From a virus, in the IMG/VR virus record IMGVR_UViG_3300025325_000154, positions 1 to 21,177 of that record: a stretch of DNA of 21,177 nucleotides. The stretch is one strand, 5' to 3'. Under the pieces are notes generated by a model that was not told the origin of the DNA, made no database searches, and was given only the letters and a program-made list of their open reading frames with translations. How positions within the stretch are numbered: the first letter of the stretch is position 1; every line of letters begins with the position of its first letter. The position numbers and the translations under genes were made by a program. This document shows, piece by piece, positions 4,556 through 19,553 of the stretch.

Positions 4556-5517
4556 ACCACCACCCGCTTGAAATGATCGATGATCTCCGCCACGTCCGGG
4601 TCCAGCTTCTGCGTGTAGCGTAGTTGCCCCAGCTCGACGATCGCACTCGTATCCTGAAACGCCTGTTGCCCACGCTTGAACCATCGGGCCGCCTGGATCA
4701 CCGTCGCCTGTACGATCTCGTCCGGTATCGCGCTCGCCAGGCTGTGCCCGAACGGCGCTGTGACCTTGACCGATTTGGGATATTTGTAGAAAACCTGCTT
4801 ATTCCCATTCAGCGTGTCCAGGTCGATGCGATAATACGGCTCGCCTTTGGCTGCCGCGTTGGGCGGCCAGACGAACCAGTCCGTCGAAGGGTAGCTGGTG
4901 TAATCGCTGGATGCCAGCCCGCCGCTCTCGGAGACCGCCAGGAGAGAGGGCGCCACCACGTACGGGTCGATCCACTGCTGTGACCCGCCCGAGCCGTCGT
5001 AATAGCGCGTCTCCTCGTCCGTGGATGCCCTGGCGAAGCTCCCCGCCTCCCACTTGGTGTAGCGGTCCAGTGCCCGGCTGGCTCGCCGGATCAGGTCGGT
5101 CAACAGGCTGTCGTATGCCGATGAGATCCCGCTGTCGGGCAAGGCCCCTCTCAGCTCGAGCACCGTGGCGTAGCCGTCTCCCAGCACCATCCCGGGGATC
5201 AGGCTCTCCACCTCCACATCCAGAGCCTGGATGACCGTGTTTCCGGTGATGGTCACCGCCATCACCAGGCGGTAGATATCCGCCGCGCTGGGTGTGAACA
5301 GCTTCGCGGTGACCAGCTTGCCCGCCGGTGTATTGCTGCCCGTCAGCATCGTGGACGAGACGTCCGTCCCATCGTGGTCGTATGCGGTCAGGCTGGGTAC
5401 ACTCACGTCGTCGCTGTCCGCCCCGATCTCGCTGAAGTCGAACACGAAGGCTTTTGCTTCCCCGACCGCCATCGGCCTGGGCGATTCTTTGACCCATAGG
5501 TTGCGTATGCTGCTCAT
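4552..5517 (-). CDS. Head-tail connector (gp6-like) with N-terminal Ig-like domain
   Basis: This 321-residue protein appears to have two parts. Residues 1-105 are a beta domain (AKAFVFDFSEI, DGTDVSSTMLTG, AADIYRLVMAVTITGNTV) resembling the small Ig-like modules seen in phage structural proteins. Residues 113-321 resemble gp6-type head-tail connectors: GYATVLELRGALPDSG, LLTDLIRRASRALDRYT, then YPKSVKVTAPFGHS, and a closing helical segment with IVQATVIQAARWFKRG and ELGQLRYTQKLDP. Connectors of this class form the ring under the portal. The start ATG overlaps the stop of the repeat-protein gene as ATGA. The connector in HK97-like phages normally follows the capsid gene directly; here it lies more than 7 kb downstream of it. 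Confidence 0.8.
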   Translation of the reverse strand: MSSIRNLWVKESPRPMAVGEAKAFVFDFSEIGADSDDVSVPSLTAYDHDGTDVSSTMLTGSNTPAGKLVTAKLFTPSAADIYRLVMAVTITGNTVIQALDVEVESLIPGMVLGDGYATVLELRGALPDSGISSAYDSLLTDLIRRASRALDRYTKWEAGSFARASTDEETRYYDGSGGSQQWIDPYVVAPSLLAVSESGGLASSDYTSYPSTDWFVWPPNAAAKGEPYYRIDLDTLNGNKQVFYKYPKSVKVTAPFGHSLASAIPDEIVQATVIQAARWFKRGQQAFQDTSAIVELGQLRYTQKLDPDVAEIIDHFKRVVV

Positions 5518-7172
5518 TGTTCGCTCGCATTCACGGTAAATACCTGGCGCCGCCCCTCAACCGTCAGGCCCTCGTCCACATTGACCTCGAACATCTGCTT
5601 GCGCGCCCGCACCATGAATAATCCCGAATAAATCAGTTGCTCTGCGCTGGCGTTCGCGCCTTCTGCCAATGCCTCGGCGGCTTGCATTAGGATCGTCACG
5701 TTGCGGATAGTTGTCACGGTTAAATTTGCCCCATCCGCGATAGTCTCCGCTGCCTGGGTGAGCACACCAGCGCCCAGTGATTGCGTGGACCAGCCGCCCT
5801 CCGCCAGCATCTCCGCCGCCTGCGAGGTGACCGTCACGCTGATGATCTCCTCGGTGCTGACCGTCGTGAAGGCGCCCTCGCCGATAGCCTCGGCACTCTG
5901 GGTGACGACCGAGATATTGGCGACCACCGCGACGGTCGTATTGGCCCCTTCGGCGAGCGCTTCTGCCCCCTGAGTGCTCACGATGGCCTCTCCGGAGATC
6001 GTGACGATGGCGCCCTCCGCCAGCATCTCCGCCGTCTGTGTAGTCACGGTCACGTCGACGATCTCTGCCGTGCTGACCGTCGTGTCCGCCCCTTCCGCTA
6101 ATGCTTCCGCCGCCTGCGTCTCAAGGCTGACGTTCTGGATCGCCTGGATTATCGTCTCAGCCCCCTCGCCGATCCCCTCCGCGGCCTGCGCCTGCACCGT
6201 CACGTTGCTGATCGTGTCAACCGTCGCCTCAGCCCCCTCGGCTATTGCCTCAGCCGCCTGTGCGCTGATGATCGCGTCGATGCGAATCTCCGCATTCGCC
6301 CCCTCGCCGATCCCCTCCGCGGGTTGGGTTGCGATGGTGACATGGCGCACTGTGATAACTGTCGTATCCACGCCTTCAGCTATCGCCTCGGCAGCCTGAG
6401 TGCTAACTGATATGCTGGTAATGGCTTCCGCCTCGCCGCGTAAAAGCTCAGGCAGGAAAATGAACCGCCGCCCCACTCTGACAATGTTGATGTGCCATGA
6501 GGCCAGGTGGATAATTATTCCAAGGTTTGCGCCCTCTGCAATGGATTCCCCTGCCTGACTGACAACGGTTACGTTCTGCTCTGCACTGACAGCCGCGCTC
6601 GCGCCCTCTCCAGTAGCCTCGCCTGGTTGGGTGGCAATGGTGATGTGCGTTGCAGAGATATTGACGGTAATAGAAGGTGTATTGGAATAGACGGCGATGG
6701 CCGACGATCCGTCATAGATGCGTAGAGCAATGGTGTCATTTTGGCTGAGCTGCGCCGCATCGAGAGATAGGCACCACTCGGTATCCCAGATCTCCCCGCC
6801 CACACCGGTGTTGACCGATCCGCCGGTCGCCTCCTTCATACCGTTGTTGTTGGTCAGGAACGTGCCAGTTCCGCCGGTGAGTTGCTCCGTGCAGTCAGCG
6901 CTGTCGCCAAAATTGCTCGACAGTGCAAACTGTACTGGCGTGCTGCCACTGACCGCGGTATAAGCGCCCCCATTCAGCGAATAGTATAAGTTCCAGACTT
7001 TATTGGTCCAGGCTTTGACGACCGTCTCATCGATCCGGAATCGGACGCGGAAATTAGCGCCGGTATCTTGCGTCCAATTGGCGTTCTGGACATCGATCCA
7101 GGACGCGCCAAATTCCGATCCATCATCGAGACGCCCACGAAATCCAACCTGGGTATAACTGGGATTGGTCAT
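5514..7172 (-). CDS. Large repeat-containing virion surface/fibre-like protein
   Basis: This 552-residue protein has three regions. Residues 1-170 form a beta-rich domain (QVGFRGRLDDGSE, ANFRVRFRIDET, WNLYYSLNGGAYT, EWCLSLDAAQL) of the type found at the head of secreted or virion surface proteins. Residues 175-511 contain thirteen copies of a Q-[APGST]-[AG]-E-x-[LIT]-[AG]-[ED]-G motif, each followed by Thr/Val-rich strands. Residues 512-552 are a short basic-to-acidic tail with a small internal repeat (RKQMFEV and RRQVFTV). It has no signal peptide and no Cys-rich region. The start overlaps the previous gene as ATGA. I infer a virion decoration or fibre protein from its place among structural genes; no enzymatic motif is visible. 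Confidence 0.75.
   Translation of the reverse strand: MTNPSYTQVGFRGRLDDGSEFGASWIDVQNANWTQDTGANFRVRFRIDETVVKAWTNKVWNLYYSLNGGAYTAVSGSTPVQFALSSNFGDSADCTEQLTGGTGTFLTNNNGMKEATGGSVNTGVGGEIWDTEWCLSLDAAQLSQNDTIALRIYDGSSAIAVYSNTPSITVNISATHITIATQPGEATGEGASAAVSAEQNVTVVSQAGESIAEGANLGIIIHLASWHINIVRVGRRFIFLPELLRGEAEAITSISVSTQAAEAIAEGVDTTVITVRHVTIATQPAEGIGEGANAEIRIDAIISAQAAEAIAEGAEATVDTISNVTVQAQAAEGIGEGAETIIQAIQNVSLETQAAEALAEGADTTVSTAEIVDVTVTTQTAEMLAEGAIVTISGEAIVSTQGAEALAEGANTTVAVVANISVVTQSAEAIGEGAFTTVSTEEIISVTVTSQAAEMLAEGGWSTQSLGAGVLTQAAETIADGANLTVTTIRNVTILMQAAEALAEGANASAEQLIYSGLFMVRARKQMFEVNVDEGLTVEGRRQVFTVNASEQ
5640..6650 (-). repeat. Thirteen 22/24/26-residue repeats (QAAEAIAEGA type)
   Basis: The conserved Gln occurs at residues 182, 206, 259, 283, 305, 329, 353, 379, 401, 425, 451, 473 and 497 of the 552-residue protein. 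Spacings are 24, 53, 24, 22, 24, 24, 26, 22, 24, 26, 22 and 24. Apart from the single 53-residue gap, which holds an unrelated insertion at residues 218-250, every spacing is even. Residues 353-424 and 425-496 are successive 72-residue blocks with the same 26-22-24 order. Confidence 0.9.
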
Positions 7173-7516
7173 CGCTCGCCCTTGTTTTCGTATACCCCAT
7201 ATGCCGTGCGCAACGGGAAGTCTGCATCGTTCTCCGCTCGACGGTAAATCTCATTCCACAACGCGTTATCGACCATCTCACCGATCAACACCCGTTTTGG
7301 ACCTGGTAAGCTCAGATATTGGATCATGCCAATCTGGTCGTAGCCACGCCAGCGCTGTAATTCCGTGTCCCAACAATAGTAATCCGCACCTGATATAATG
7401 CGCCGCCCATGATCTGGATCTCGTTCAATGATTACCAGAACGCGAAAGATAGGCGCCTTCCAGGGTTCGCCATCATAGATATTGCCATCGGTATAGTAAA
7501 CGCGGAACGGGATCAC
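7169..7516 (-). CDS. Hypothetical protein in the structural module
   Basis: This 115-residue protein most likely starts at GTG 7516, three bases after the previous stop, with GAGGA seven bases upstream. An upstream continuation of the frame lies over the preceding gene and is not protein-like. Visible features are YYTDGNIYDGEPWKAP, then FRVLVIIERDPDHGRRIISGADYYCWD, then WRGYDQIGMIQYLSLPGPKRVLIGEMV. The mix of Tyr/Trp and short strands suggests a compact alpha/beta fold. No family is recognised. It is coupled to the next gene by an ATGA overlap, so it is probably made together with the repeat protein. Chaperone and minor virion protein are both possible. Confidence 0.6.
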   Translation of the reverse strand: MIPFRVYYTDGNIYDGEPWKAPIFRVLVIIERDPDHGRRIISGADYYCWDTELQRWRGYDQIGMIQYLSLPGPKRVLIGEMVDNALWNEIYRRAENDADFPLRTAYGVYENKGER

Positions 7517-7518
7517 GC

Positions 7519-7965
7519 TTATTCCTCGAAGAATATCTTTGCCCTGGCGTTGACGATCGCCGGTGCGGTGGCGCGCAGCCCGATCCGGTCGGACGCCCCG
7601 CAGATCGGCTCCTGCCCCAGCGGGTACTTGACCTCCCATCCGGATTGTGGGTGTACCTCGGCCATGTCCAGGATGTCGCCCGCGGTAGGCTCGCCGGTGA
7701 AATCCTGCTGGGCGGTGGTATCCAGGCTATCAGCATTGCTGTCGTTCAGCTTGACCAGCGTCAATGCCGACGCTGTGCCCGCAGTGGTTTGGCGCAGTAG
7801 CTCCACCTGCACCGGCTCGGCGGTCACTGATGTGCCGTCAAAATATACGCCCCAGCCCAAAATCTTGATCGAGTGATTTGCCGCAGCAACCAACTGGATC
7901 AGCGTTTCAACTGTGGCCGCAGCCAGTGCCTCTTCGGCAATAATTGCCACTCCGATTTGTGCCAT
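7519..7965 (-). CDS. Putative minor virion structural protein
   Basis: This 148-residue protein starts at ATG 7965, with AGGAG seven bases upstream; the earlier GTG (7971) lies too close to the ribosome site. It begins MAQIGVAIIAEEALAAATVE and continues with HSIKILGWGVYFDGTS, AEPVQVELLRQTTAGTAS, GEPTAGDILDMAEVHPQSG and YPLGQEPICGASDRIGLRATAP, ending in AKIFFEE. This strand order (a parameter-type PVxVELLRQTTAGT strand, then YPLGxEP, then RxGLRxTAP) is one I associate with small beta-sandwich phage proteins near capsid genes. The role as decoration or minor coat protein is inferred from that and from the neighbours. It follows the LamG gene by two bases. Confidence 0.6.
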   Translation of the reverse strand: MAQIGVAIIAEEALAAATVETLIQLVAAANHSIKILGWGVYFDGTSVTAEPVQVELLRQTTAGTASALTLVKLNDSNADSLDTTAQQDFTGEPTAGDILDMAEVHPQSGWEVKYPLGQEPICGASDRIGLRATAPAIVNARAKIFFEE

Positions 7966-7967
7966 AA

Positions 7968-8702
7968 TCACACTCCTAATGCTGCAATTTGGTAGGCCCT
8001 ATCAGATCTTATAAATATGCTTTTGACCGCCCGCTCATCCGCCGCTGGTGCGGCTGGGAGGAAATACGTGCGCGGTAGCTGGTGAATGATCGAAGGGTGT
8101 ACGGCCACACCCGGCGACCCAGTAACAATCGAAAATGACGCTCCCTGGACGTAATCCTCGTCCTCTGCCCGCCACATAGGGACATAGGAAACTAAATTGC
8201 CGGGGCGCACGTTGAACGAATTCCCACGGCGAGCCAGGGCTGTCTCCTCACCTGAGCTAAGGACAGCGTCCCACAAGGTAAACTCTGCCAGGTATCCAAT
8301 CCAGCGGTTGCCTCCGTCGTTGCGCTGAGCGATGTTATAACGGCTGGTTAGGGCAACGGTAAGATTAGAACCGCTATTGGTGTCCAGAGTGCCGTTGACT
8401 ATGGCCCGCATACTCTGACCACCGGCGGTGCTGCTGCACAGTATGTGTGTCCAGGTCTGTTGTGCCACTTGCCCAACAGTCGTGATCGAGCGTGTCCCGC
8501 CGCTGCCCATTATCACAAACTCAACGCTGCCACCGGATACTGTACGTACTTGCACAGTATTGCCTGTGGTCTCCCCCAAGCCGAGCATACAACGGATAGC
8601 CGTAGAATCCAGCCACACCCAGGCAGAATACGTGAACGGCCCGTCGGTGAACGGCACGCCAGCATAAAAAAGGGCCGCAAACCCATCGAACGAACGTGAC
8701 AT
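7968..8702 (-). CDS. LamG / concanavalin A-like domain virion protein
   Basis: This 244-residue protein carries a LamG-like jelly-roll domain over about residues 20-165. The marks are FTYSAWVWLDS, then MLGLGETTG, the WTHILCSS strand, MRAIVNGTLDTNSG, and RWIGYLAEFTLWDAVLSSGEE before ALARRG, which are the usual closing elements of the fold (W-x-H, NG, GxLAE, W-x-x-x-LS-x-x-E). The C-terminal 75 residues are not assigned. Such domains bind sugars or proteins on cell surfaces. In a phage structural operon this suggests a capsid or tail decoration that touches glycans. The ATG overlaps the preceding stop as TAATG, and there is no signal peptide. Confidence 0.75.
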   Translation of the reverse strand: MSRSFDGFAALFYAGVPFTDGPFTYSAWVWLDSTAIRCMLGLGETTGNTVQVRTVSGGSVEFVIMGSGGTRSITTVGQVAQQTWTHILCSSTAGGQSMRAIVNGTLDTNSGSNLTVALTSRYNIAQRNDGGNRWIGYLAEFTLWDAVLSSGEETALARRGNSFNVRPGNLVSYVPMWRAEDEDYVQGASFSIVTGSPGVAVHPSIIHQLPRTYFLPAAPAADERAVKSIFIRSDRAYQIAALGV

Positions 8703-9205
8703 TACGTCTCCCTACCGAATACGCCCCACAATTCCGCATCTCCAGTCATATTGCCGCCTACGCTGATATCGCGATAAACACGCACCATCGCCAGCTCTCC
8801 GTCGGCCCAGCTATCCATGTCTGCACCGTTGGTGAATGCAACCGTTGGATAAACTACCTCGCCCGAGACGGAGCCGGGTGCATCATCGACAGTATTGAAG
8901 TCGTAGGTATGGGAGGTATCTACATCCTCCGCGTCATCCTGGATGCGCCGAATCGCCACGCCCCAGCGCACTGTACCGGTCGTGGCAGTCGTCGCCGACC
9001 AGGGCAGCGTGATCGTCAGACCGCCGCCATCGTAGCCGCGCAGAATGCACAGGAAATCCAGGTATTCGTTTGCCGAGGCATCGAAATCCCAGACCGGGAA
9101 ATTCTCCGCTGGGGTCGAGCCGCCAGGGCGCACATCGAACGTCGCGTAGGTCGCCGCTGGCGGCATGATGGAAATGATTTGAACAACAGTATCTCCACTG
9201 GCCAT
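8702..9205 (-). CDS. Putative beta-sandwich virion protein
   Basis: This 167-residue protein starts at ATG 9205 with AAGGTAGAG upstream. It begins MASGDTVVQIISIMPPAATY and contains FDVRPGGSTPAENFPVWDFDAS, EYLDFLCILRGYDGGGLTITLPWSA, and a second half with TVRWGVAIRRIQDDAEDVDTS, AFTNGADMDSWADGELAMVRVYRD. The length and alternation of strands suggest a jelly-roll, a shape common to phage head fibres and decoration proteins. The phrase order (GxRWGVxIRR..DD near the middle and GELAMVRVYRD near the end) is similar to hypothetical proteins I recall near capsid genes in environmental phages. No enzymatic residues are apparent. Confidence 0.65.
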   Translation of the reverse strand: MASGDTVVQIISIMPPAATYATFDVRPGGSTPAENFPVWDFDASANEYLDFLCILRGYDGGGLTITLPWSATTATTGTVRWGVAIRRIQDDAEDVDTSHTYDFNTVDDAPGSVSGEVVYPTVAFTNGADMDSWADGELAMVRVYRDISVGGNMTGDAELWGVFGRET

Positions 9206-9226: not shown

Positions 9227-9862
9227 TCACCGTATCCCTATCGTCGCGATCCCGGTCGCGTCGAACTGGACCGTAAAGTTCCCATTGCTCGATGTCTGGT
9301 CGCTGCCGAAATCATTGTAGAGCAAAAGCGGGCTATCGCTTGCCACACCGCCCACATTCAGGTAGATCTCTCCATGCCGGGCGGTGATGCTGGAGCTGCT
9401 CCAGGTCTCGTCGGCCGCGTCGAACTTGATATATGCCGTGCCGTACTCCACCCATTCCACGGTGTTGTCCGCCACCTGGTCATTCGTCCCTGTCGGGAAA
9501 GATGGCTCGTCCGAAGCTGCCGCCCCGCTGGTCCCCGCCGTGATGCATTTGTAGACGTGCGTGTTCGCCGCTGTGGGTGCGACGATGTCCCCGAGCTGGT
9601 AAGCCGTCGCCGGTGCCCAGGCCGGTGCATCGCTGTCCACCACCAGGGCCACGGTGGGGCTCTCCAGGCTATCGCCGCCCGCCACGTAGCCAGTCCCGCT
9701 TGCCTCGTCCGTCGCCGGGATGTCGCTGCGATAGATATGCGTGTCCAGGTTGACCGTGTAGGTCGATTGGGTCAGCATGATCTTCAGGTTGCCAGCGTCC
9801 CAATCCACCTGGCCGTTGGCCATCGCCACCAGCGCGTTACCGTACCATTGCCATTGAGCCAT
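9227..9862 (-). CDS. Phage structural protein with inserted carbohydrate-binding-like domain
   Basis: This 211-residue protein starts at ATG 9862 with a perfect AGGAGG seven bases upstream. The flanks (residues 1-78 and 142-211) resemble a known phage structural family: WYGNALVAMANGQVDWDAG, LKIMLTQSTYTVNLDTHIY, GTGYVAGGDSLESPTVAL, and later SSITARHGEIYLNVGG and LLLYNDFGSD. Between them, residues 81-141 hold an insert with AWAPATAYQLGDIV, HVYKCITAGTSG, DEPSFPTGT and NTVEWVEYG, the signature of a small carbohydrate-binding-like module (W..xTAYxxGDxV..Y.C..AGTSG..EP). The gene overlaps the glycosyltransferase end by 26 bases. A virion surface role is inferred. Confidence 0.75.
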   Translation of the reverse strand: MAQWQWYGNALVAMANGQVDWDAGNLKIMLTQSTYTVNLDTHIYRSDIPATDEASGTGYVAGGDSLESPTVALVVDSDAPAWAPATAYQLGDIVAPTAANTHVYKCITAGTSGAAASDEPSFPTGTNDQVADNTVEWVEYGTAYIKFDAADETWSSSSITARHGEIYLNVGGVASDSPLLLYNDFGSDQTSSNGNFTVQFDATGIATIGIR

Positions 9863-10706
9863 AATTCGCCTCCTGAATTCTGATCTTCTCGTCCAGCACG
9901 TTTCCCATGTGCTGGGCATAGCGTTGTATCGTGGTTAATCTGAGCAGCCCCTCCCGGTCTATTGCCATGTCGAACAGCTTCTCATCGCTGATCGCCTCGC
10001 CGTCCCACTGTACGATGTAGTCGATCTTCCCGGCGTAGGTAATGAACTGGCAGTGGTGCGCCGTGGCGTAGGCTTGCAGGCCGTTATATTCGACCAGGTA
10101 ATCCTTATCATTCTTGGTGTAGATCAATTGGTAAGCGTAATTCCTGCCGATCGAGATGCAGAAATCCCGGTCGTATTCCTCGGGGATGAACCGCCCGATC
10201 TTCAGCTTGGCGTTTTTCAGCGCCCAGTTGACCGTGCTCTCCACCGCCCAGCGGAACTGCGTCCGCACCGGGTATCCGCTCACCACGCCGACATTTGGGA
10301 AGCCGCGCAGCAAATCCAGTTGTGGTTGCAGCCAGTCGGGGTAGAAATACATATCGTCGTCGCAGATGCATACCACCGTCTCCGGCGGGAAAGCCCGCAC
10401 GATCGATGATCTGGCCGATGCCTTGCCTACGTTGGGCGCCAGCGTCAGGTAATCGGGCTTGTATTCGTTCTGCAGCCAGTCGCGCAGCTCCGGTCCCGAG
10501 CCGTTGTCCCAGATGCAGGTCGCCACCTCCATCCCTGCCCGCTCGCGCATCGTCTTCAGGCAGAGCTGCACGATCTCCAGCCTGTTCGCGTGGTATCCAT
10601 CGGCATATTTGCCGCCCACGTTCGGCAGGTGCGTGATCGCACAAACAACGATCTTGGGCATGGGCTGGGCTTGCTGCCCTCGCAGTGGGTTATGTCCGCT
10701 TCTCAT
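9837..10706 (-). CDS. GT2-type glycosyltransferase
   Basis: This 289-residue GT-A-fold protein probably transfers a sugar from a nucleotide donor. The N-terminal strand is PKIVVCAITHLP (residues 16-28), followed by the IWDNGS motif at 65-70, where family 2 enzymes bind the nucleotide. NVGKASARSS (residues 92-101) and the metal-binding acidic cluster CDDDMYFYPDW (115-125) follow. The C-terminal part (GYPVRTQFRWAVES, FIPEEYDRDFC) is less conserved. The ATG at 10706 overlaps the methyltransferase stop as ATGA, with GGAG upstream; a second ATG (10661) would remove 15 residues of uncertain use. The target could be a virion protein or DNA; neighbouring methyltransferase and surface-protein genes favour virion glycosylation. 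Confidence 0.82.
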   Translation of the reverse strand: MRSGHNPLRGQQAQPMPKIVVCAITHLPNVGGKYADGYHANRLEIVQLCLKTMRERAGMEVATCIWDNGSGPELRDWLQNEYKPDYLTLAPNVGKASARSSIVRAFPPETVVCICDDDMYFYPDWLQPQLDLLRGFPNVGVVSGYPVRTQFRWAVESTVNWALKNAKLKIGRFIPEEYDRDFCISIGRNYAYQLIYTKNDKDYLVEYNGLQAYATAHHCQFITYAGKIDYIVQWDGEAISDEKLFDMAIDREGLLRLTTIQRYAQHMGNVLDEKIRIQEANYGSMAMVR

Positions 10707-11242
10707 TCCATCTCCAATCGATAGAATTCCGTCACTAGGTAGCTCGTCCTGCCCGGCACGTTGCGGTTGAAGAATTGCACCGGCTCGGCCTTTTTCATGA
10801 ACTTCAGCCGCTCGATCTGATATTCGGGTCGGTTTGCGTTATCCAGCACCACGATCCCCCCTGGCTTGACGAAGCGCTCCACGTCCATCAGAAAGCGAGC
10901 GCGGTCCTCCACCGGCTCGCCGTCGATCAGGAACAGGTCGAATTGCCGCGGCAATTTTGCCGAGGGCGACAGGCGCGGGTAGTTCCCACGGTCCCACAGG
11001 ATCAGGCGTGCGTTGGAGGGTGCGAGCTTGGCGATTAGCTTGTGCCACTCGCGCTTGGTCTCGATGGCGACTACCTTCTTGACCCGCTCCGCCAGCCACA
11101 GCGTCGATCCGCCCGAGCCGTGCTCCAGCACGGTCATATCCGGGCTCAATAATTTCTCCAGGTATGCCGTCACGTCCGGGTGCAGCCAGGGCTTCGCCAG
11201 AATGTCGCCGCTTGTTGGGGAAGGTCGCCACCATTCAGCCAT
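10703..11242 (-). CDS. SAM-dependent methyltransferase
   Basis: This 179-residue class I Rossmann-fold methyltransferase starts at ATG 11242, which lies inside the end of the preceding gene (ATGGCTGA), with GAGG six bases upstream; a TTG at 11254 would add four residues. Motif I is VLEHGSGGST (residues 38-47), with the acidic end of strand 2 at E61 (VVAIE). FDLFLIDGEPVEDR (D107) and GGIVVLDNANRPEY complete the core. The overall type (E-x-G-x-G-x-S and L-I-D-G) resembles small-molecule or sugar methyltransferases of the Methyltransf_24 class rather than DNA methylases, as no DPPY/NPPY motif is present. Together with the adjacent GT2 gene it may modify a sugar on the virion. Confidence 0.8.
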   Translation of the reverse strand: MAEWWRPSPTSGDILAKPWLHPDVTAYLEKLLSPDMTVLEHGSGGSTLWLAERVKKVVAIETKREWHKLIAKLAPSNARLILWDRGNYPRLSPSAKLPRQFDLFLIDGEPVEDRARFLMDVERFVKPGGIVVLDNANRPEYQIERLKFMKKAEPVQFFNRNVPGRTSYLVTEFYRLEME

Positions 11243-12500
11243 TCGATACCTCAACTTCCTTTGTTTCGCTCTCGATCTTCGCCATCAGCAAGGCCTCCTC
11301 CGCCTTCTCGCCACCCGCTGCTCTGAGAAGTCGGTCTACCTCGTCCAGCAGGGTGATGTTCTCCTTCATCGCCCCGTTGACCCGCCCCAGCTCGAACGCC
11401 GCCTGGACATACGCCTGGTGCGCCTCCGAATATTTCTGGCTCAGTCCATCCAGTTGCGCCAGCTCTCGTTCTTCCTTGACTGCTGCCTCGATGGCCTTCC
11501 AGGCGCTGCGCGCCTCGGCCCCCAGAACGTTGACCTGCGATTTGCGTTTCTCCAGCTCGCCGTTGGCCTGCGCTGCGGTCAGCTCGAATTCCTGCCGCGC
11601 CAGCATGTGCCAGCCGCTCTCTCGGTCCATCTGCTCGCATTTGAGCAGGTAGCGGTCTACCTCTCCCAGCGCCCCGATGAACATCCCCACCGCCATGATC
11701 GCCTCGGTCTGCCGCTTGATCCCGATGAAGTAGTCCCGTGCCGTGGCGACTGCGGCCATGCCCGGCTCGCCGCCGCTCTCCTCCATCGCTTTTTCCAGTG
11801 TAACCCTGTGCTGATCGTTGGCCGCTTCTAGCTCCGCATCAGCCTCTGTTTTGCGCTCCAGCAAGATTCCCCGGCGCGCCAAAAGCTGCTCGCGGCCCAG
11901 GTAAGCTCCACCCTCGTAGCCGTACAGCGGATCGCTGAACAGGTGGCTCTTTTCCTGGATGTGCACCTGGATGCCTCTGCCCAGCGCCAGACCGATCCAG
12001 AAGAAAACTCCGGCTCGTTGCAGGTTGTACTCCGTGTCGCTCTCCATCTCGATCCCATAGATCTCGATCCGCTGGTAATTCTTGTGTATTGCAAGCGCCA
12101 GGGCGAACGCGGGCGAGCTGGTTAAGAAGCGCTTCATCGCCCGCCCCTTCGTCAGCCCGGCAAGGAATCGCTTGCAGATTGCCTCTAGCGGGTAGCTCCG
12201 GCTGGCGGGCACTTCCTCGTAGCGTTCCAGCATCCAGATCGGATAGGGGTGCTCCTGGCGCATCCATTCCGGATATTTCGGGTCGTTGCGGTTCAGCGGG
12301 TTTTTCCACACCGGCGCGGCGTGCATCTGGAACACGCCGTCCACCCGCTTCGGCCAGCCGATCGATGCACTTTCGTTGAATAACCAGATATCCACGCCCT
12401 TGTCGTGCCAGGGCACGCCATCGCGAGTTAGCGTGTGGCTGCCCACGATGGCCACTGTCTTCGAGCTGACCTGTTGCCTGCCATTGCGCCTATTCCTCAT
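11235..12500 (-). CDS. Rossmann-type (DUF115/MptE-like) protein with long helical C-terminus
   Basis: This protein is 421 residues when started at ATG 12500, which has AAGGAAG upstream; frames further upstream (to 12608) are not protein-like. Residues 15-185 look like a Rossmann-type fold: KTVAIVGSHTLTRDG at the start, VDIWLFNESAS, then SSPAFALALAIHKNYQRIEIYGIEM (about 128-152). The last segment is the pattern of DUF115/MptE-like and sialyltransferase-type folds (S-S-x-x-x-A-L-A-L-A, I-x-I-Y-G-x-[DE]-M). Residues 203-415 are charged and helical with heptad-like spacing, probably a coiled coil. The stop lies within the start of the methyltransferase gene. I infer a role with the GT2 and methyltransferase genes; the catalytic activity is unproven. 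Confidence 0.6.
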   Translation of the reverse strand: MRNRRNGRQQVSSKTVAIVGSHTLTRDGVPWHDKGVDIWLFNESASIGWPKRVDGVFQMHAAPVWKNPLNRNDPKYPEWMRQEHPYPIWMLERYEEVPASRSYPLEAICKRFLAGLTKGRAMKRFLTSSPAFALALAIHKNYQRIEIYGIEMESDTEYNLQRAGVFFWIGLALGRGIQVHIQEKSHLFSDPLYGYEGGAYLGREQLLARRGILLERKTEADAELEAANDQHRVTLEKAMEESGGEPGMAAVATARDYFIGIKRQTEAIMAVGMFIGALGEVDRYLLKCEQMDRESGWHMLARQEFELTAAQANGELEKRKSQVNVLGAEARSAWKAIEAAVKEERELAQLDGLSQKYSEAHQAYVQAAFELGRVNGAMKENITLLDEVDRLLRAAGGEKAEEALLMAKIESETKEVEVSNG

Positions 12501-12526
12501 CGGCTTCCTTTCTGGCCTTTGCCCGG

Positions 12527-12558
12527 GGGGCCGGAGTAAAGAGAGAATCCCCGACCCC
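12527..12558 (-). other. Intergenic hairpin between decoration protein and modification genes
   Basis: In the 85-base gap (12501-12585) the transcript can pair GGGGTCGG (12558-12551) with CCGGCCCC (12534-12527), eight pairs with one G-U, over a 16-base loop. No T-run follows, so it is not a classical terminator. It could weaken expression downstream of the abundant capsid genes or stabilise the upstream message. This is one of the few gaps in the operon. Confidence 0.4.
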
Positions 12559-12585
12559 TCAGGATGATTAGCCATGCCAATCTGG

Positions 12586-12975
12586 CTATGTGTCGAACCT
12601 CGGCTCAACGATCACGCCCACCCAGTTGTAAGCGTTGGCCGCCGTCCCGCCCATCGTCAGATAGGCGCGCAGGTAACGCTTGGTCGCCGTCACCCCGATC
12701 TGTGATGCGCCCTCCGAGCCATCAAGCACCTGGGTAAAGGCCGCCCCGCTGATATCCGAGAAATCCGAATCAACGGTCGTGCCCGATTCCTGGAACTTGC
12801 AGTCGTAGGTGTGGTCGGTATCGGTGGCTGGTCCGAGGTCATAGTTGACCCATACGCCAGTCATTTCACGCACGCCGACGTGCATATACGGTCCCAGGTC
12901 GATCTCGTTGGTCGCCGCCACGTCGGAATCGCTCGTCGAGGCGTAGATTTGCACTAAAACCCTTTTTCTTCCCAT
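12586..12975 (-). CDS. Putative head decoration protein
   Basis: This 129-residue protein directly follows the major capsid gene after 31 bases and starts at ATG 12975 with GGGAGGTGAT upstream. Its sequence (KRVLVQIYASTSDSD, NEIDLGPYMHVGVREMTGV, CKFQESGTTVDSDFSDISGA, then SQIGVTATKRYLRAYLTMGG and NWVGVIVEPRF) matches a small beta-sandwich family that sits after capsid genes in many tailed phages. The DxxxQES..DSDFSDI..AAFTQV and KRYLRAxLTxGG elements are the conserved core. In phages such proteins decorate or cement the capsid shell. Function rests on family resemblance and position, not on a catalytic or binding motif. Confidence 0.68.
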   Translation of the reverse strand: MGRKRVLVQIYASTSDSDVAATNEIDLGPYMHVGVREMTGVWVNYDLGPATDTDHTYDCKFQESGTTVDSDFSDISGAAFTQVLDGSEGASQIGVTATKRYLRAYLTMGGTAANAYNWVGVIVEPRFDT

Positions 12976-13006: not shown

Positions 13007-14383
13007 TTAAGTCGAGTTGACCGTCTTCAACAGGCTCAGGCGGTATGCTTCCACCAGCTGCCCGCCCACGCGCTTTTTCGCCAACAGCAAGACCTGGTTG
13101 GTCTCCGCATACAGCTCGTCCAGTCTCTGGATCGAAAGTCCGACGCGGTCCACCACCGCGTAGCCGCTCAGATCGCCGAACACGAGCGGGTGCGTGGTCG
13201 TGATGGAGGCGCTGCTGATGTTGTCCATGAACTCATCGCGCACCACAGGGAAGCCCAGCAGCTCGTTGGCTGCTACGCCGAACCCTCCGACCAGCGCCTT
13301 GACCGGCCAGATGTAATCGCTGTCAGCGTCTTTCAGTTTGCGGATGTATTTCTCCGTGGCCTTGGTTATGAACACCCGCGCGTTGCGCTCGTATTGCGCT
13401 GGCAGTGCGTAGATCACGTCGATTACCTCGTCCGCATCGATAGCATTGGCCGCCGCCGCGGTCTGTACCTGAGCGTCGAAGTTGGTCGTATCGCTGGCGT
13501 CGTTGATGATGCCGCGTGGCTGCCCCGCGCCGGTGCCGCTCCAGAACGCCGCATTCTCGCCCAAAGCGAAGGCTTCGCCCAGCAAATCGGACGAGATGCC
13601 CTGCACGTCGAAAGCTGCATCCATTAGCAGGTCGTTGCTGAGCAGTTGGCTGGCCATCGCCGTGTTGACCGGGATATTGAATTCGCCGAATACCTGATCA
13701 GTCACTCGATGGACGGTTGCCGTGGAGGGTGTTTCGCCAGTCCAGGTCAGGCGAATGCCCGAGGTGTACTGATTGTCTGTGGTGTATTTGATGCGTGGCC
13801 ATTTGACTGCATCGCGGCTGGTGGAGATTACCCGCGCGAATTGCCGCACGGTCGCCATCGTGGCGATCTTTTTCAAGATGCTGCCCTGCATGTCTTCCGG
13901 CACCAGATAGCCGCCCGCCGAATCGACCGCCTCTTGCAACAGTTTGCGGTCGTCCGGGCCAATCTCGCCCTTGCCCTTGCGGATATACGCCTCGAAGGCA
14001 GAGGCATAGCCCTTCATCTGCACGGCCATGGGAACGTGATAGCGGATCTCTTTCTTTTCCACGCCGAACGGTGTGAGCAAGGCAATCTCGAAAGAATGCC
14101 AGGCTTTCACATCTACATCCGGATCGCCTTCACCCGGTCCGGCTGGCCGCCAGCCGTGGTGTGCCGCCTTCGTGCCCGCCGGTTGGTCCAGGTACGCGTC
14201 CGCGGCCTGGATGCGCTCCTGGTGGTCGATCTGGACCTTGATCTCATCCGCCCCCCCCAGCAGTGCTGTGATCTCGTCCGCGGCCTCCTTGCTCAGCGGC
14301 TGGTCGCCCGCCACCTCGGTTTTCTTTTTGGCTTCTGCGATCTTGGCCGCGTAAGCCTTTTTCAGTTCCTCTAGCGTTTTCAT
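13007..14383 (-). CDS. Major capsid protein (HK97 fold)
   Basis: This 458-residue protein forms the icosahedral shell. Residues 1-62 are a charged helical delta (scaffold-like) domain of the kind removed by the prohead protease. The conserved core includes DSAGGYLVPEDM (about 154-165), WPRIKYTTDN, FGEFNIPVNTAMASQLLSND (232-251), ISSDLLGEAFALGENAAFWSG (263-283) with GTGAGQPRGIIN, and the C-terminal VFGDLSGYAVVDRVGLSIQR. These are typical HK97 capsid signatures. The ATG has GAGGTGAG just upstream and the gene starts four bases after the protease stop. The cleavage site cannot be placed from sequence alone; the region between the helical domain and GGYLVPE (residues 63-150) is long. Confidence 0.95.
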   Translation of the reverse strand: MKTLEELKKAYAAKIAEAKKKTEVAGDQPLSKEAADEITALLGGADEIKVQIDHQERIQAADAYLDQPAGTKAAHHGWRPAGPGEGDPDVDVKAWHSFEIALLTPFGVEKKEIRYHVPMAVQMKGYASAFEAYIRKGKGEIGPDDRKLLQEAVDSAGGYLVPEDMQGSILKKIATMATVRQFARVISTSRDAVKWPRIKYTTDNQYTSGIRLTWTGETPSTATVHRVTDQVFGEFNIPVNTAMASQLLSNDLLMDAAFDVQGISSDLLGEAFALGENAAFWSGTGAGQPRGIINDASDTTNFDAQVQTAAAANAIDADEVIDVIYALPAQYERNARVFITKATEKYIRKLKDADSDYIWPVKALVGGFGVAANELLGFPVVRDEFMDNISSASITTTHPLVFGDLSGYAVVDRVGLSIQRLDELYAETNQVLLLAKKRVGGQLVEAYRLSLLKTVNST

Positions 14384-16022: not shown

Positions 16023-16645
16023 TACATCTCCACGGATGGTTGCAGCCAGCACCGGCAGTTCACGTGCGCTGGAGGCGTGCTCAATCCGAGCCCGCCTATC
16101 TCGGTCGTAAATCCGTTGCTCTCCAATTCCACCAGCATTCCATCCAGCGGCAGGCAGATCGGGCAGACCAGCTCGTCCTCCGCCGTCATCCAACGTTTCC
16201 CTACTACCACGCCCGATTCCCGCCAGGTCGCCAGGTTGCCCTCGGCGTATGCTCTGGTCACCTCGGTGACCGCGATCATCTCCGCCCGCACTATCCCGAA
16301 CATCGGTGCGATTCCCTCGATCAGGCTGTCCAGCGGAGCGCCGCTCTCGATCCATTCGGCGATCTCCGATTGCAGGAAGCGCCGCGTCGTCTCGTTGATC
16401 CCGCGCACCAGCCCAAAAGTGTAGCTGCGCGACCACTGCGTAGCAGCCTGGTTGACCAGCGCCCAGTCTACACCGATCCCCATAGTCAACAGCCCGTCCA
16501 AAGCCGCCTGCGCCCCGTCCAGCGCCGCGGACCGGACCAGCGGGAACAGGATTGCGAAGAGCAGGTCATCCTCATTCTGCCAGTCGAGCAACTTGACCGA
16601 AAAATTAACCGGCAATTTTGCCGATTCCGTTATTGGCAGTGACAT
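16022..16645 (-). CDS. Phage head morphogenesis protein, MuF / SPP1 gp7 type
   Basis: This 207-residue minor head protein shows the conserved C-terminal MuF core: AEMIAVTEVTRAYAEGN (121-137), then WMTAEDELVCPICLPLDG (152-169), and PPAHVNCRCWLQP (191-203). The cysteines C161, C164, C197 and C199 with H194 probably form a small metal or structural site. SPP1 gp7/MuF proteins act in early head assembly and DNA ejection, next to the portal, as here. The start region overlaps the portal end by 41 bases. The ATG at 16645 lacks a well-spaced ribosome site, so a later start (for example TTG 16615) is possible. No toxin domain is fused at the C-terminus. Confidence 0.9.
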   Translation of the reverse strand: MSLPITESAKLPVNFSVKLLDWQNEDDLLFAILFPLVRSAALDGAQAALDGLLTMGIGVDWALVNQAATQWSRSYTFGLVRGINETTRRFLQSEIAEWIESGAPLDSLIEGIAPMFGIVRAEMIAVTEVTRAYAEGNLATWRESGVVVGKRWMTAEDELVCPICLPLDGMLVELESNGFTTEIGGLGLSTPPAHVNCRCWLQPSVEM

Positions 16646-18077
16646 CCTCGATCACACGCTCCTGTTGTTCCTTAAACCATGCCGTCATCGCTGCCCTGAC
16701 CTTGCGCTCGTGCCTGCGCCGCTCGTCGTCGTCGGGCGCGTTGGCTGCCGCCTTGCCATATTTCCCGCCCACCAATTCCTCCTCGCTGCCCGTTCCATTC
16801 CCTGGCGCCGTCCCCGGCGATGGCAGCGCGGGCATCGCCAGGCCCTTCTTTTTCTGTGGCACCTCGTACATCTGCAAAGTGTAGATATATACGTCACCCG
16901 CCGGGCCGATGGTCTCCATCCCCACCTCGCGGTAAAATTCGTTTTTACTGATCGCTCCTGCCCGCAACGCCTCGGTCGCCCGCTTCCACTTGGCATCCGT
17001 CTCTTCCTGAAAGGCGCGCACCTTGTCCAGGTTCCAACTCACCTCGTACTCTTTGTCTGGGTCGAACCTGCGCAGCAGGCGGTCCAGCACGTCGATAAAG
17101 TTCTCGTACATCGGCATCAGTGTGTCTTCCCACCAGCCGCGCCGCGCTTCTTTGTAGTTGGCGTACGTCGAGCGGTCCAGCCCCACCTTCGCCCCCACCA
17201 GGATCGGCGGCACGTCGAATACCATGCAGATGCGCGCCTCCTCCCTCGCATCCAGCACGTCGAAGCCCATCTCCTCGAACGACCAGGCGATCTTCTGGTA
17301 TTCCTGGTCCCGGTCCAGGATCGCCGGTTCGAGCCAGTTGCTGCGCCCCCCGTAGCGCTCGCGCCAGCGTCGGCGTGTGTCCGTGATCGCCGTATCGGTC
17401 AGCACCTGGGTGGTCTTCAGCAAACCTTGCGGCATGCCTCCATGCTCCCAGGTCAGCTTGATGTGGTCGGTGGCCGCGTTGTCGATGTCGCCCGCTCGCG
17501 CCGCCACCGCCACCGGAGGGAACACCGTGAAGCGGTTGAGTGGGTCGAATATCGGGAAGTCGAGCATTTGCGAAGGCGGTAGGTGCTGGTCTTCCATCCC
17601 CGGCACCTCATAAATATATTCGGCGACAACCGGGCGCTTTTCCCCCGGCATCACCCGCAGCCGGTTTGGGATCAGCGGCCACAGTGCGATCGGCAGGCCT
17701 CGGTTGTTCAATTCGATCTCGTAAGCCGCTCGCCCCGCCAGCTTCTGGAACATCACCACGCTGCTCCATAAGTCCGACTCGTTCATGGTGTCATTAGGGT
17801 GATGAATCAGATCCAGGAATGGATGTTCGTTGACGAGCTGCTTGTCCCGTTTGCGCCTGAGCTGGACGGCGAGCTGCGATGCGCTCGCGCTCGCCTTATT
17901 GATGCAGGCATAGATCAGCTCGTTGCGCCGGTAGCCCTCCCGCACCAGCGTCTCGTATTTGGCGCTGGTAGCATAATGCGGCTGCCTGCTCTCCCACGAT
18001 GGGCGCAGCGCTGCCACGGTCGATTTGCCGTTCAGGATGAAGCGCAGTCCAGGGCCAAGCCGTCTGACGAATGACAT
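16605..18077 (-). CDS. Portal protein (HK97-like)
   Basis: This 490-residue protein forms the dodecameric DNA gate at one head vertex. The sequence has the standard order: RNELIYACINKASASASQLA near residue 52, HPFLDLIHHPNDTMNESDLW (about 85-104), LAGRAAYEIELN, ALWPLIPNRLRVMPGE, then DAREEARICMVFDVPPILVG with LDRSTYANYKEARRGWWEDTL (about 275-315), then FKEQQER near the C-terminus. The FDVPPxLVG and STYANYKEA motifs are hallmarks of the HK97-type portal. The ATG lies six bases after the terL stop (18086-18084), with AGGTG upstream. The Pro/Gly-rich linker (PSPGTAPGNGTG) and acidic-basic C-terminal region may be flexible. It overlaps the MuF gene. Confidence 0.93.
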   Translation of the reverse strand: MSFVRRLGPGLRFILNGKSTVAALRPSWESRQPHYATSAKYETLVREGYRRNELIYACINKASASASQLAVQLRRKRDKQLVNEHPFLDLIHHPNDTMNESDLWSSVVMFQKLAGRAAYEIELNNRGLPIALWPLIPNRLRVMPGEKRPVVAEYIYEVPGMEDQHLPPSQMLDFPIFDPLNRFTVFPPVAVAARAGDIDNAATDHIKLTWEHGGMPQGLLKTTQVLTDTAITDTRRRWRERYGGRSNWLEPAILDRDQEYQKIAWSFEEMGFDVLDAREEARICMVFDVPPILVGAKVGLDRSTYANYKEARRGWWEDTLMPMYENFIDVLDRLLRRFDPDKEYEVSWNLDKVRAFQEETDAKWKRATEALRAGAISKNEFYREVGMETIGPAGDVYIYTLQMYEVPQKKKGLAMPALPSPGTAPGNGTGSEEELVGGKYGKAAANAPDDDERRRHERKVRAAMTAWFKEQQERVIEDVTANNGIGKIAG

Positions 18078-18083
18078 CTACAC

Positions 18084-19553
18084 CTACACTCCCTTGAATG
18101 GTTCTCCGCTCTGGTCCAGCTTGCTGTATGCCCCGCTGGACGCATCCACGTCATCCTTGAACCGACCCATCGGGAACGCCACGTGGTTCTCGATGTAGAC
18201 TTCGTTCCACCCGCCCCGCACCAGCCGCACGATCCCCGCCTCCAGTGCGCTGCTCCATGGACCGGCGCGCACTTCCTTGGATCCGGTGACCGTCTCGAAG
18301 TGTGCCTCGAACCCCCCCCCGCTCAGCTTGGCGTTCGTCGCCTGGGCGCTGTCCTTCCCGCTCGAGCCCGGCTCCTGTTCGTGCCAGAACACTATGTGCC
18401 CCGGTCGATGTTCCCTATCCAGTCTGGCCGTCTTCAGCATCTCCTCCTCGCGCTGGTGCATGCTCCATTGCCCGCGGCTGACGTGCTCCACGTAGATTAG
18501 CCCATCTAGCCCCTTGCTCATGCATACTCCTGATGAGAATGCCCCACCTCCCGCTGTCGACGCCTTGTCCCAGTAGCGCACGCGTGAAACCACCTCCCGC
18601 GGCGGCTGTTCCACGATCACGAACCAATCCCGCCGGAATAAATTCCCCGCCCGGCTGTACGGCCTCTGCTGATACAGTGCCTCCCAGTCATACGAGCCGA
18701 CGCTTGCCCGGATCGTCTCCAGCACTCCCGCTCCGTACATCTCCGGCCACAGCGCGTCCCCCCCTTCCCTTCCCAGCGCGTCCCGCTGATCCACCCACAC
18801 TCCGTTGAGCAGCTCGTTGTACCGGTATTTCTCCCAATCGACCCCCTCAGGCGGCCTGGGCGCTTCCCAGATCGCGGGTAGGCTGAGCACGTGCCACCGC
18901 TCCGAGCGCGGGTTGGTCGCCATCCCTCGCAGGATCCGCCCCGCCCAATCATCCGCGTGCCATCTTGTGAACATCCCGATCGCCGCGCCCCACGGCCTGA
19001 GCCGGGTGCGCGCCGAGCTGGTCCACCACTCCCACACGTCCCGCCGGTAGGTCTCGCTTTCCGCTTCTTTACGGTTCTTGAAGGGGTCATCGATGATGAA
19101 TAAATAGGCCGGTTTTCCCGTGATCCCACCGCCCACCCCCGCCGCCACCAGCCCGCCACGGTTCGGCGCCGCCAGGTCCCAGGCTTCCACGCTCCGGCTG
19201 TCCGAGCTCAGTTCCACCGGCGCGTCCACCGTCCCCCGCTGCCCGAATACGTTCATGTACAGCTCGTCCATCACGATCTTCCTGGCCGCCCGGCTGTTCT
19301 CCAGCGCCAGGCTCGAGCCGTACGATGTCGTGATGATCCGCGTATCAGGTTGCCTGCCCAACACCCACGCCGGGAAATGCTTGCTCACCATCTCCGTCTT
19401 GCCATGCTGTGGCGGCATCGAGATCAGCAGCCTGCCGATCCCCTCCTCGCCCTGCGTTGCCAGGTACAGCTCCACCTGCTCGAGCATCTCCGCCACCAGC
19501 CGGTGGTGCCTGGATGCCCGGTACCACGGCGAGGTGTACTCCATGAAATCCAC
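18084..19553 (-). CDS. terL: Terminase large subunit
   Basis: This protein packages DNA using an N-terminal ATPase and a C-terminal RNase H-like nuclease. From the GTG at 19553 (489 residues) the Walker A is SMPPQHGKTEM (45-55), Walker B is YLFIIDDPFKN (150-160), and WWTSSARTRLRP follows. Nuclease marks are VRYWDKASTAGG (first catalytic Asp) and DDVDASSGAYSK near the C-terminus. TerL ATPases of this type usually begin further upstream with a charged helix. The frame is open upstream to 19622 and codes a convincing helix (KAEVAREELARRELARRHLV), but has no ATG, GTG or TTG; ATT 19613 or CTG 19619 (overlapping the terS stop) could be the true start. The gene is downstream of terS and upstream of portal. 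Confidence 0.95.
   Translation of the reverse strand: MDFMEYTSPWYRASRHHRLVAEMLEQVELYLATQGEEGIGRLLISMPPQHGKTEMVSKHFPAWVLGRQPDTRIITTSYGSSLALENSRAARKIVMDELYMNVFGQRGTVDAPVELSSDSRSVEAWDLAAPNRGGLVAAGVGGGITGKPAYLFIIDDPFKNRKEAESETYRRDVWEWWTSSARTRLRPWGAAIGMFTRWHADDWAGRILRGMATNPRSERWHVLSLPAIWEAPRPPEGVDWEKYRYNELLNGVWVDQRDALGREGGDALWPEMYGAGVLETIRASVGSYDWEALYQQRPYSRAGNLFRRDWFVIVEQPPREVVSRVRYWDKASTAGGGAFSSGVCMSKGLDGLIYVEHVSRGQWSMHQREEEMLKTARLDREHRPGHIVFWHEQEPGSSGKDSAQATNAKLSGGGFEAHFETVTGSKEVRAGPWSSALEAGIVRLVRGGWNEVYIENHVAFPMGRFKDDVDASSGAYSKLDQSGEPFKGV

Follow-up and report, generated by a model that had tools for sequence, protein, structure and literature searches.

A phage structural-operon protein with a conserved predicted Ig-like head and an apparently exchangeable repeat stalk

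Gene neighbourhood of the repeat protein

The window is a 21,177-bp stretch of virus DNA that carries, on the minus strand, a siphovirus-type structural operon with the gene order MCP, P0001, head-tail adaptor, tape measure (Table 1). The P0001 gene, which lies inside the head gene block, encodes a repeat protein made up of three parts: an N-terminal domain (here called the head), an array of repeats and a short tail.

Table 1. Features of the window, from high to low coordinates
Feature	Position	Strand	Evidence or remarks
Terminase	18084-19553	minus	
Portal	16605-18077	minus	PF04860
MCP	13007-14383	minus	PF05065
Cassette gene	8702-9205	minus	69-71% identical in L017/L039
LamG (concanavalin-like) protein, cassette	7968-8702	minus	Pfam PF13385, E 4.6e-15; conserved in L017/L039
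Cassette gene	7519-7971	minus	94-95% identical in L017 and L039
Small upstream gene travelling with the head	7169-7555	minus	37-70% identity beside the head in L001, L002, L017, L039, L041, L042, L043
P0001, repeat protein CDS, 552 residues	5514-7172	minus	ATG start overlaps stop of upstream gene (ATGA)
P0001 head, residues 1-170, predicted Ig-like β sandwich	6663-7172	minus	kept in relatives; AF2; VIA-align
P0001 junction, codon 170	6663-6664	minus	DNA similarity to alignable relatives stops here
P0001 repeat stretch	~5613-6659		
P0001 repeat units 1 and 2 (Gln 182, 206), residues 172-229	6486-6659	minus	motif count
P0001 irregular part of 53-residue gap, contains VRVGRRFIFLPELLRGE	6399-6485	minus	motif count and sequence inspection
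P0001 repeat units 3-13 (Gln 259 to 497)	5613-6398	minus	lengths 24, 22, 24, 24, 26, 22, 24, 26, 22, 24
72-residue three-unit superrepeat of P0001	5685-6116		units 7-9 and 10-12 have MLAEG second unit in common
P0001 C-terminal tail FMVRARKQMFEVNVDEGLTVEGRRQVFTVNASEQ, ~9-residue short strand repeats	5517-5612	minus	lag-9 z = 1.8, weak for P0001
Head-tail adaptor, directly downstream of P0001	4552-5517	minus	PHROG 442, E 6.6e-11
Tape measure	270-2402	minus	

The small gene overlapping the P0001 start codon accompanies the head at seven loci, and the whole run from the outermost cassette gene through the LamG gene, the next cassette gene and the small gene to the head is conserved in L017 and L039. 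The cassette gene nearest P0001 belongs to no Pfam or PHROG family; its identity in these two loci compares with 71-76% for the nearby head. Distant relatives of this gene occur in L048-L050, and at L049 the gene after its homologue (L049:4418-5335) encodes another short repeat (LQIVFPSFSTAF-like) without a P0001-type head.

In other records the head-bearing gene lies between the portal and MCP genes (G002) or upstream of the portal gene (G007); the order of portal, MCP and head-bearing genes thus differs between records, as it does for accessory genes. At L039 a neck gene also lies 3' of it. The phages that carry the head gave no match to the terminase of this record, although these are contig fragments, for which an empty answer is weak evidence, and tblastn detected no MCP similarity in the flanks of the head loci.

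One head with different stalks

AF2, run with ten head sequences, modeled residues 1-170 of P0001 as a confident β-sandwich, with block pLDDT of ~71-95. The best matches to the head in the PDB were Ig-like or similar sandwiches (best VIA-align Z 8.7; Foldseek E above 1e-3), an arrangement too common to permit assignment to a family. In BFVD, the full model had a single match with E below 1e-3, to a minor tail protein of Mycobacterium phage Tourach; this match was rejected, having a TM-score of 0.10 and resting on low-confidence parts of the model.

The head recurs in ~14-15 IMG/VR contigs, plus fragments, at 56-80% identity, and this set was saturated, a final scan giving just one 18-residue fragment (L044). 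A search with the whole of P0001 found five IMG/VR loci (L001-L005) in which residues 1-170 are 73-80% identical and are followed by a SDAVTVAD repeat instead. Searches for the head among cultured phages, among plasmids and in bacterial genomes found none; the head had no convincing match in PHROG, and the PHROG matches of P0001's relatives were weak or to other domains only.

Seven other, unrelated C-termini occur on P0001-type heads, giving, with QAAEAIAEGA, eight stalk types. The seven are SDAVTVAD (L001-L005), LSSSGALxK (L017, L038-L040), SLAVSNKTI (L018), TGAPxLGxPA (L020), SPSSS-rich (L041), LSKTLADVTLDSDG (L042) and Gly-rich (L043). Profile comparison between the repeat types detected no relation, but the small profiles aligned poorly. 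In L001-L005, L017 and L038-L040, the relatives close enough to be aligned across the junction, DNA similarity to the P0001 gene ends at codon 170. Several of the head-bearing proteins end in tails of short strand-like repeats (e.g., RRAYVDFEN in L001, GRRQVFTV in P0001) with periods of 9-11, the hydropathy lag z being 1.8 to 3.2 in five of the six tested; L018 gave no signal in this test. Among near relatives, L001 and L002 both have 13 units, and the L017 and L038-L040 proteins are all 695 residues long; as the set holds no near relative of the QAAEAIAEGA array, this comparison of unit number rests on the other stalk types. The gene at L041:5001-9434 encodes 1477 residues, in which a P0001-type head precedes very long SPSSS mucin-like stretches broken by apparently folded domains.

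L017 and L039 have recently shared a repeat block: their LSSSGAL repeats are 99.2% identical over 1.7 kb, compared with 76.7% for the head's first 245 bases and 82.7% for the upstream gene, and, on the 3' side, 81.5% for the last 135 bases and 73.3% for the next gene. Beyond these flanks backbone identity is back at 92-100%. The pattern shows mosaic recombination inside the gene and does not indicate which side moved. The L002 phage has two genes (L002:3840-5663 and L002:6001-7533), with LamG-like and Ig-like heads, both followed by SDAVTVAD repeats. Its protein P0009, which has the LamG-like head (PHROG 14065), carries the repeats of P0002 and P0003, and the significant BLASTP alignments between P0002 and P0009 (E 3e-26) are confined to the repeat region. 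Judged from these comparisons, the stalk appears to be the exchangeable part.

P0001 is probably an accessory virion-surface protein, likely a fibre of the head or neck, with an Ig-like head, an exchangeable β-rich stalk of 13 units and a short tail. Phage fibres usually have a conserved N-terminus and a variable C-terminus, a layout that also fits P0001, and LamG and CBM genes adjoin; the protein might on these grounds be a tail fibre or receptor-binding protein, with the repeat region or the C-terminus as the distal receptor contact. This seems unlikely, because the P0001 gene is upstream of the adaptor and tape-measure genes, outside any tail-tip module, and because the head-bearing gene of G002 sits between portal and MCP.

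Repeat spacing and predicted structure

The earlier note on this DNA had described 13 repeats with units of 22, 24 or 26 residues and one 53-residue gap, and had placed the motif outside described families. Both descriptions held. The pattern Q-x-[AG]-E-x(2,3)-[ED]-G has 13 matches in P0001, at residues 182, 206, 259, 283, 305, 329, 353, 379, 401, 425, 451, 473 and 497, and the Gln spacings are, in order, 24, 53, 24, 22, 24, 24, 26, 22, 24, 26, 22 and 24, identical in position and spacing to those first given. Thirteen copies of QxAExIAEGA are far beyond chance. P0001 had no match above curated cut-offs in Pfam or NCBIfam and none convincing in PHROG; sequence searches of the PDB gave nothing related to its repeats or head, and a profile of the units gave no significant match to PDB sequences (best E 0.14, an unrelated enzyme). 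Among viral proteins, a profile scan of IMG/VR yielded 161 pattern matches, none of them confirmed, and a scan of IMG/VR with the DNA motif of the repeat yielded 17 stretches, all single unrelated occurrences; nowhere else in IMG/VR was the motif tandem. No phage match to the repeat was found at E up to 10, a search in which the BLAST low-complexity filter may hide matches; plasmids gave no match to P0001, and a description of such a protein type was not found in the literature.

TRF reported no tandem array in the DNA of the repeats, and three-unit blocks are 59-68% identical at the DNA level. The array is therefore old and held by constraint at the protein level, rather than a product of recent slippage. 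A gap-free alignment of units 7-9 with units 10-12 spans 72 residues and has a score of 187, as against ≤135 for the best block at any other lag; the three-unit lag scores highest in the C-terminal half. The VRVGRRFIFLPELLRGE insert resembles the array's own C-terminal strand motif and also the Arg-rich insert YRIRARVMRRRLIASLVERIGG in the L017 array (P0004 residues ~268-310). To judge from these two sequences, P0001 and L017, there seems to be one such interruption per array.

Past residue 170, the AF2 model of P0001 shows strands and no helix, with a pLDDT of ~35 for the repeats, and a second run on the repeats alone, taking units 3-6 with units 7-10 and 10-13 aligned to them in register, gave a pLDDT of 34.6. 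These low values could reflect a flexible, largely disordered Ala/Thr-rich linker that has no defined fold and is kept for length and charge alone; the strong net charges and the mucin-like SPSSS C-terminus at L041 would also fit. Such a linker is nevertheless doubtful, because the hydropathy and charge of the repeat region lie on the folded side, Val, Ile and Thr are abundant, and the strict Q, E and G positions survive divergence at the DNA level. The region is strand-rich, with strand propensity at TTVxT and VTVxT.

The earlier note had further proposed that the repeats build a continuous β-solenoid or β-prism stalk, with QAAEAIAEGA as turns and with even length changes preserving the in/out alternation of strands. 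The strands are backed by propensity and by the helix-free monomer model; that model, at its low pLDDT, does not demonstrate a continuous solenoid or prism. Turns at QAAEAIAEGA are likewise no more than a possibility, since the propensity of QAAEAIAE leans to helix over strand. A solenoid, prism or triple β-spiral that requires even units for its in/out register would accord with the even spacings (11 of 12), with the even units of L017 (18 or 20) and with the preference of hydrophobic residues in the P0001 repeats for odd offsets from Gln (35, against 17 at even offsets; p = 0.012). The probability of 11 even spacings in 12, p = 0.003, is however valid only if the 12 are independent, which they are not: a stretch of three units (72 residues) has undergone duplication, and the recurring 26, 22, 24 is one inherited pattern. 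About three independent length changes are therefore left, for which we estimate a chance of ~1/8 that all are even. In addition, the parity of the register shifts across the 53-residue gap, and the lag-2 autocorrelation over the whole array is negative, so that alternation is not continuous. A fold of this kind is accordingly improbable, and the even unit lengths of P0001 probably carry no meaning. Even length as a general rule was ruled out by the duplication and by the units of other arrays on the same head, which are 21 residues nearly throughout in L042, 23 in L020 and a mixed 20-24 in L001. An α/β repeat, in which QAAEAIAE forms a short Gly-capped helix and TTVxT/VTVxT form strands, is very improbable: helix propensity does exceed strand propensity over unit positions 1-7 and an invariant Gly comes next, but AF2 places no helix there (both runs being of low confidence), and no obvious helix-like segment is present in the other stalks on P0001-type heads.

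Proposed architecture and known systems

As an accessory virion-surface protein, P0001 would comprise the conserved 170-residue, Ig-like N-terminal domain of a putative fibre and, between this domain and the short terminal tail, a stalk of 13 β-rich units of 22-26 residues. Different repeat stalks would recombine onto one head near codon 170, and one repeat type would also recombine onto different heads. We infer a virion location for P0001, an elongated β-rod form for the stalk, which would serve as a spacer, and binding of cells or glycans by the head or the tail. The head, kept across phages with dissimilar capsids, could bind a shared ligand, or could dock via the product of the small upstream gene; the lack of shared terminase or MCP similarity is awkward for docking on one specific capsid. 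More broadly, and tentatively, uncultured phages may hold a pool of interchangeable stalks built of 18-26-residue units. Recombination at a constant junction would join these to a few conserved heads of the virion surface (Ig-like, LamG), varying the chemistry and length of the stalk while head and partner gene stay; QAAEAIAEGA would be an undescribed member of this pool with a fold of its own.

Phage fibres are known to be modular; in the present case one 170-residue head occurs with eight stalk types, without detectable relation to one another, in otherwise dissimilar phages, and the set adds a sharp junction and the recent transfer of a block. Should the stalks prove to be spacers or coats of the surface, they would offer natural interchangeable rods with which to compare stalk effects (reach, charge, avidity), and the heads could flag unannotated virion proteins.

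P0001 is not placed in any of three known classes to which it bears some likeness. The Ig-like capsid decoration proteins T4 Hoc, T5 pb10 and N4 gp17 are thought to mediate adhesion (PMC7602432). Like these, P0001 has an Ig-like domain (in its case predicted), proximity to capsid genes, a possible role in adhesion, and an accessory, horizontally spread character; unlike them, it has a single Ig-like domain plus short repeats rather than a chain of Ig domains, and there is no sequence match. In adenovirus-type triple β-spiral shafts, short repeats form a stalk from anchor to tip, giving reach (PMC4834066, PMC4587935). The P0001 stalk may by analogy work as such a spacer, but its repeats have no profile match to solved shafts, and domain order and unit pattern differ. 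Periscope Proteins are bacterial surface proteins in which a repeat stalk projects a functional domain, the repeats being highly identical and variable in number (PMC9704523). Projection of a functional domain by a repeat stalk might likewise be the working principle of P0001, whose three-unit blocks are by contrast diverged and undetected by TRF, and whose near relatives L001 and L002 have the same unit count. In PHROG terms, the neighbours of P0001 fall in the adaptor (PHROG 442), tape-measure and head-decoration families, and P0001 itself convincingly in none.

Between the MCP and adaptor genes, the stretch at 9227-12608 carries genes for a CBM5/12 protein (also matching head-decoration PHROG 20658) and for a GT2 glycosyltransferase, both next to the conserved LamG cassette run. 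It also holds a small methyltransferase-like gene and, at 11235-12608, a gene whose 457-residue product has no known family; the stretch is possibly an island of virion-surface and glycan functions.
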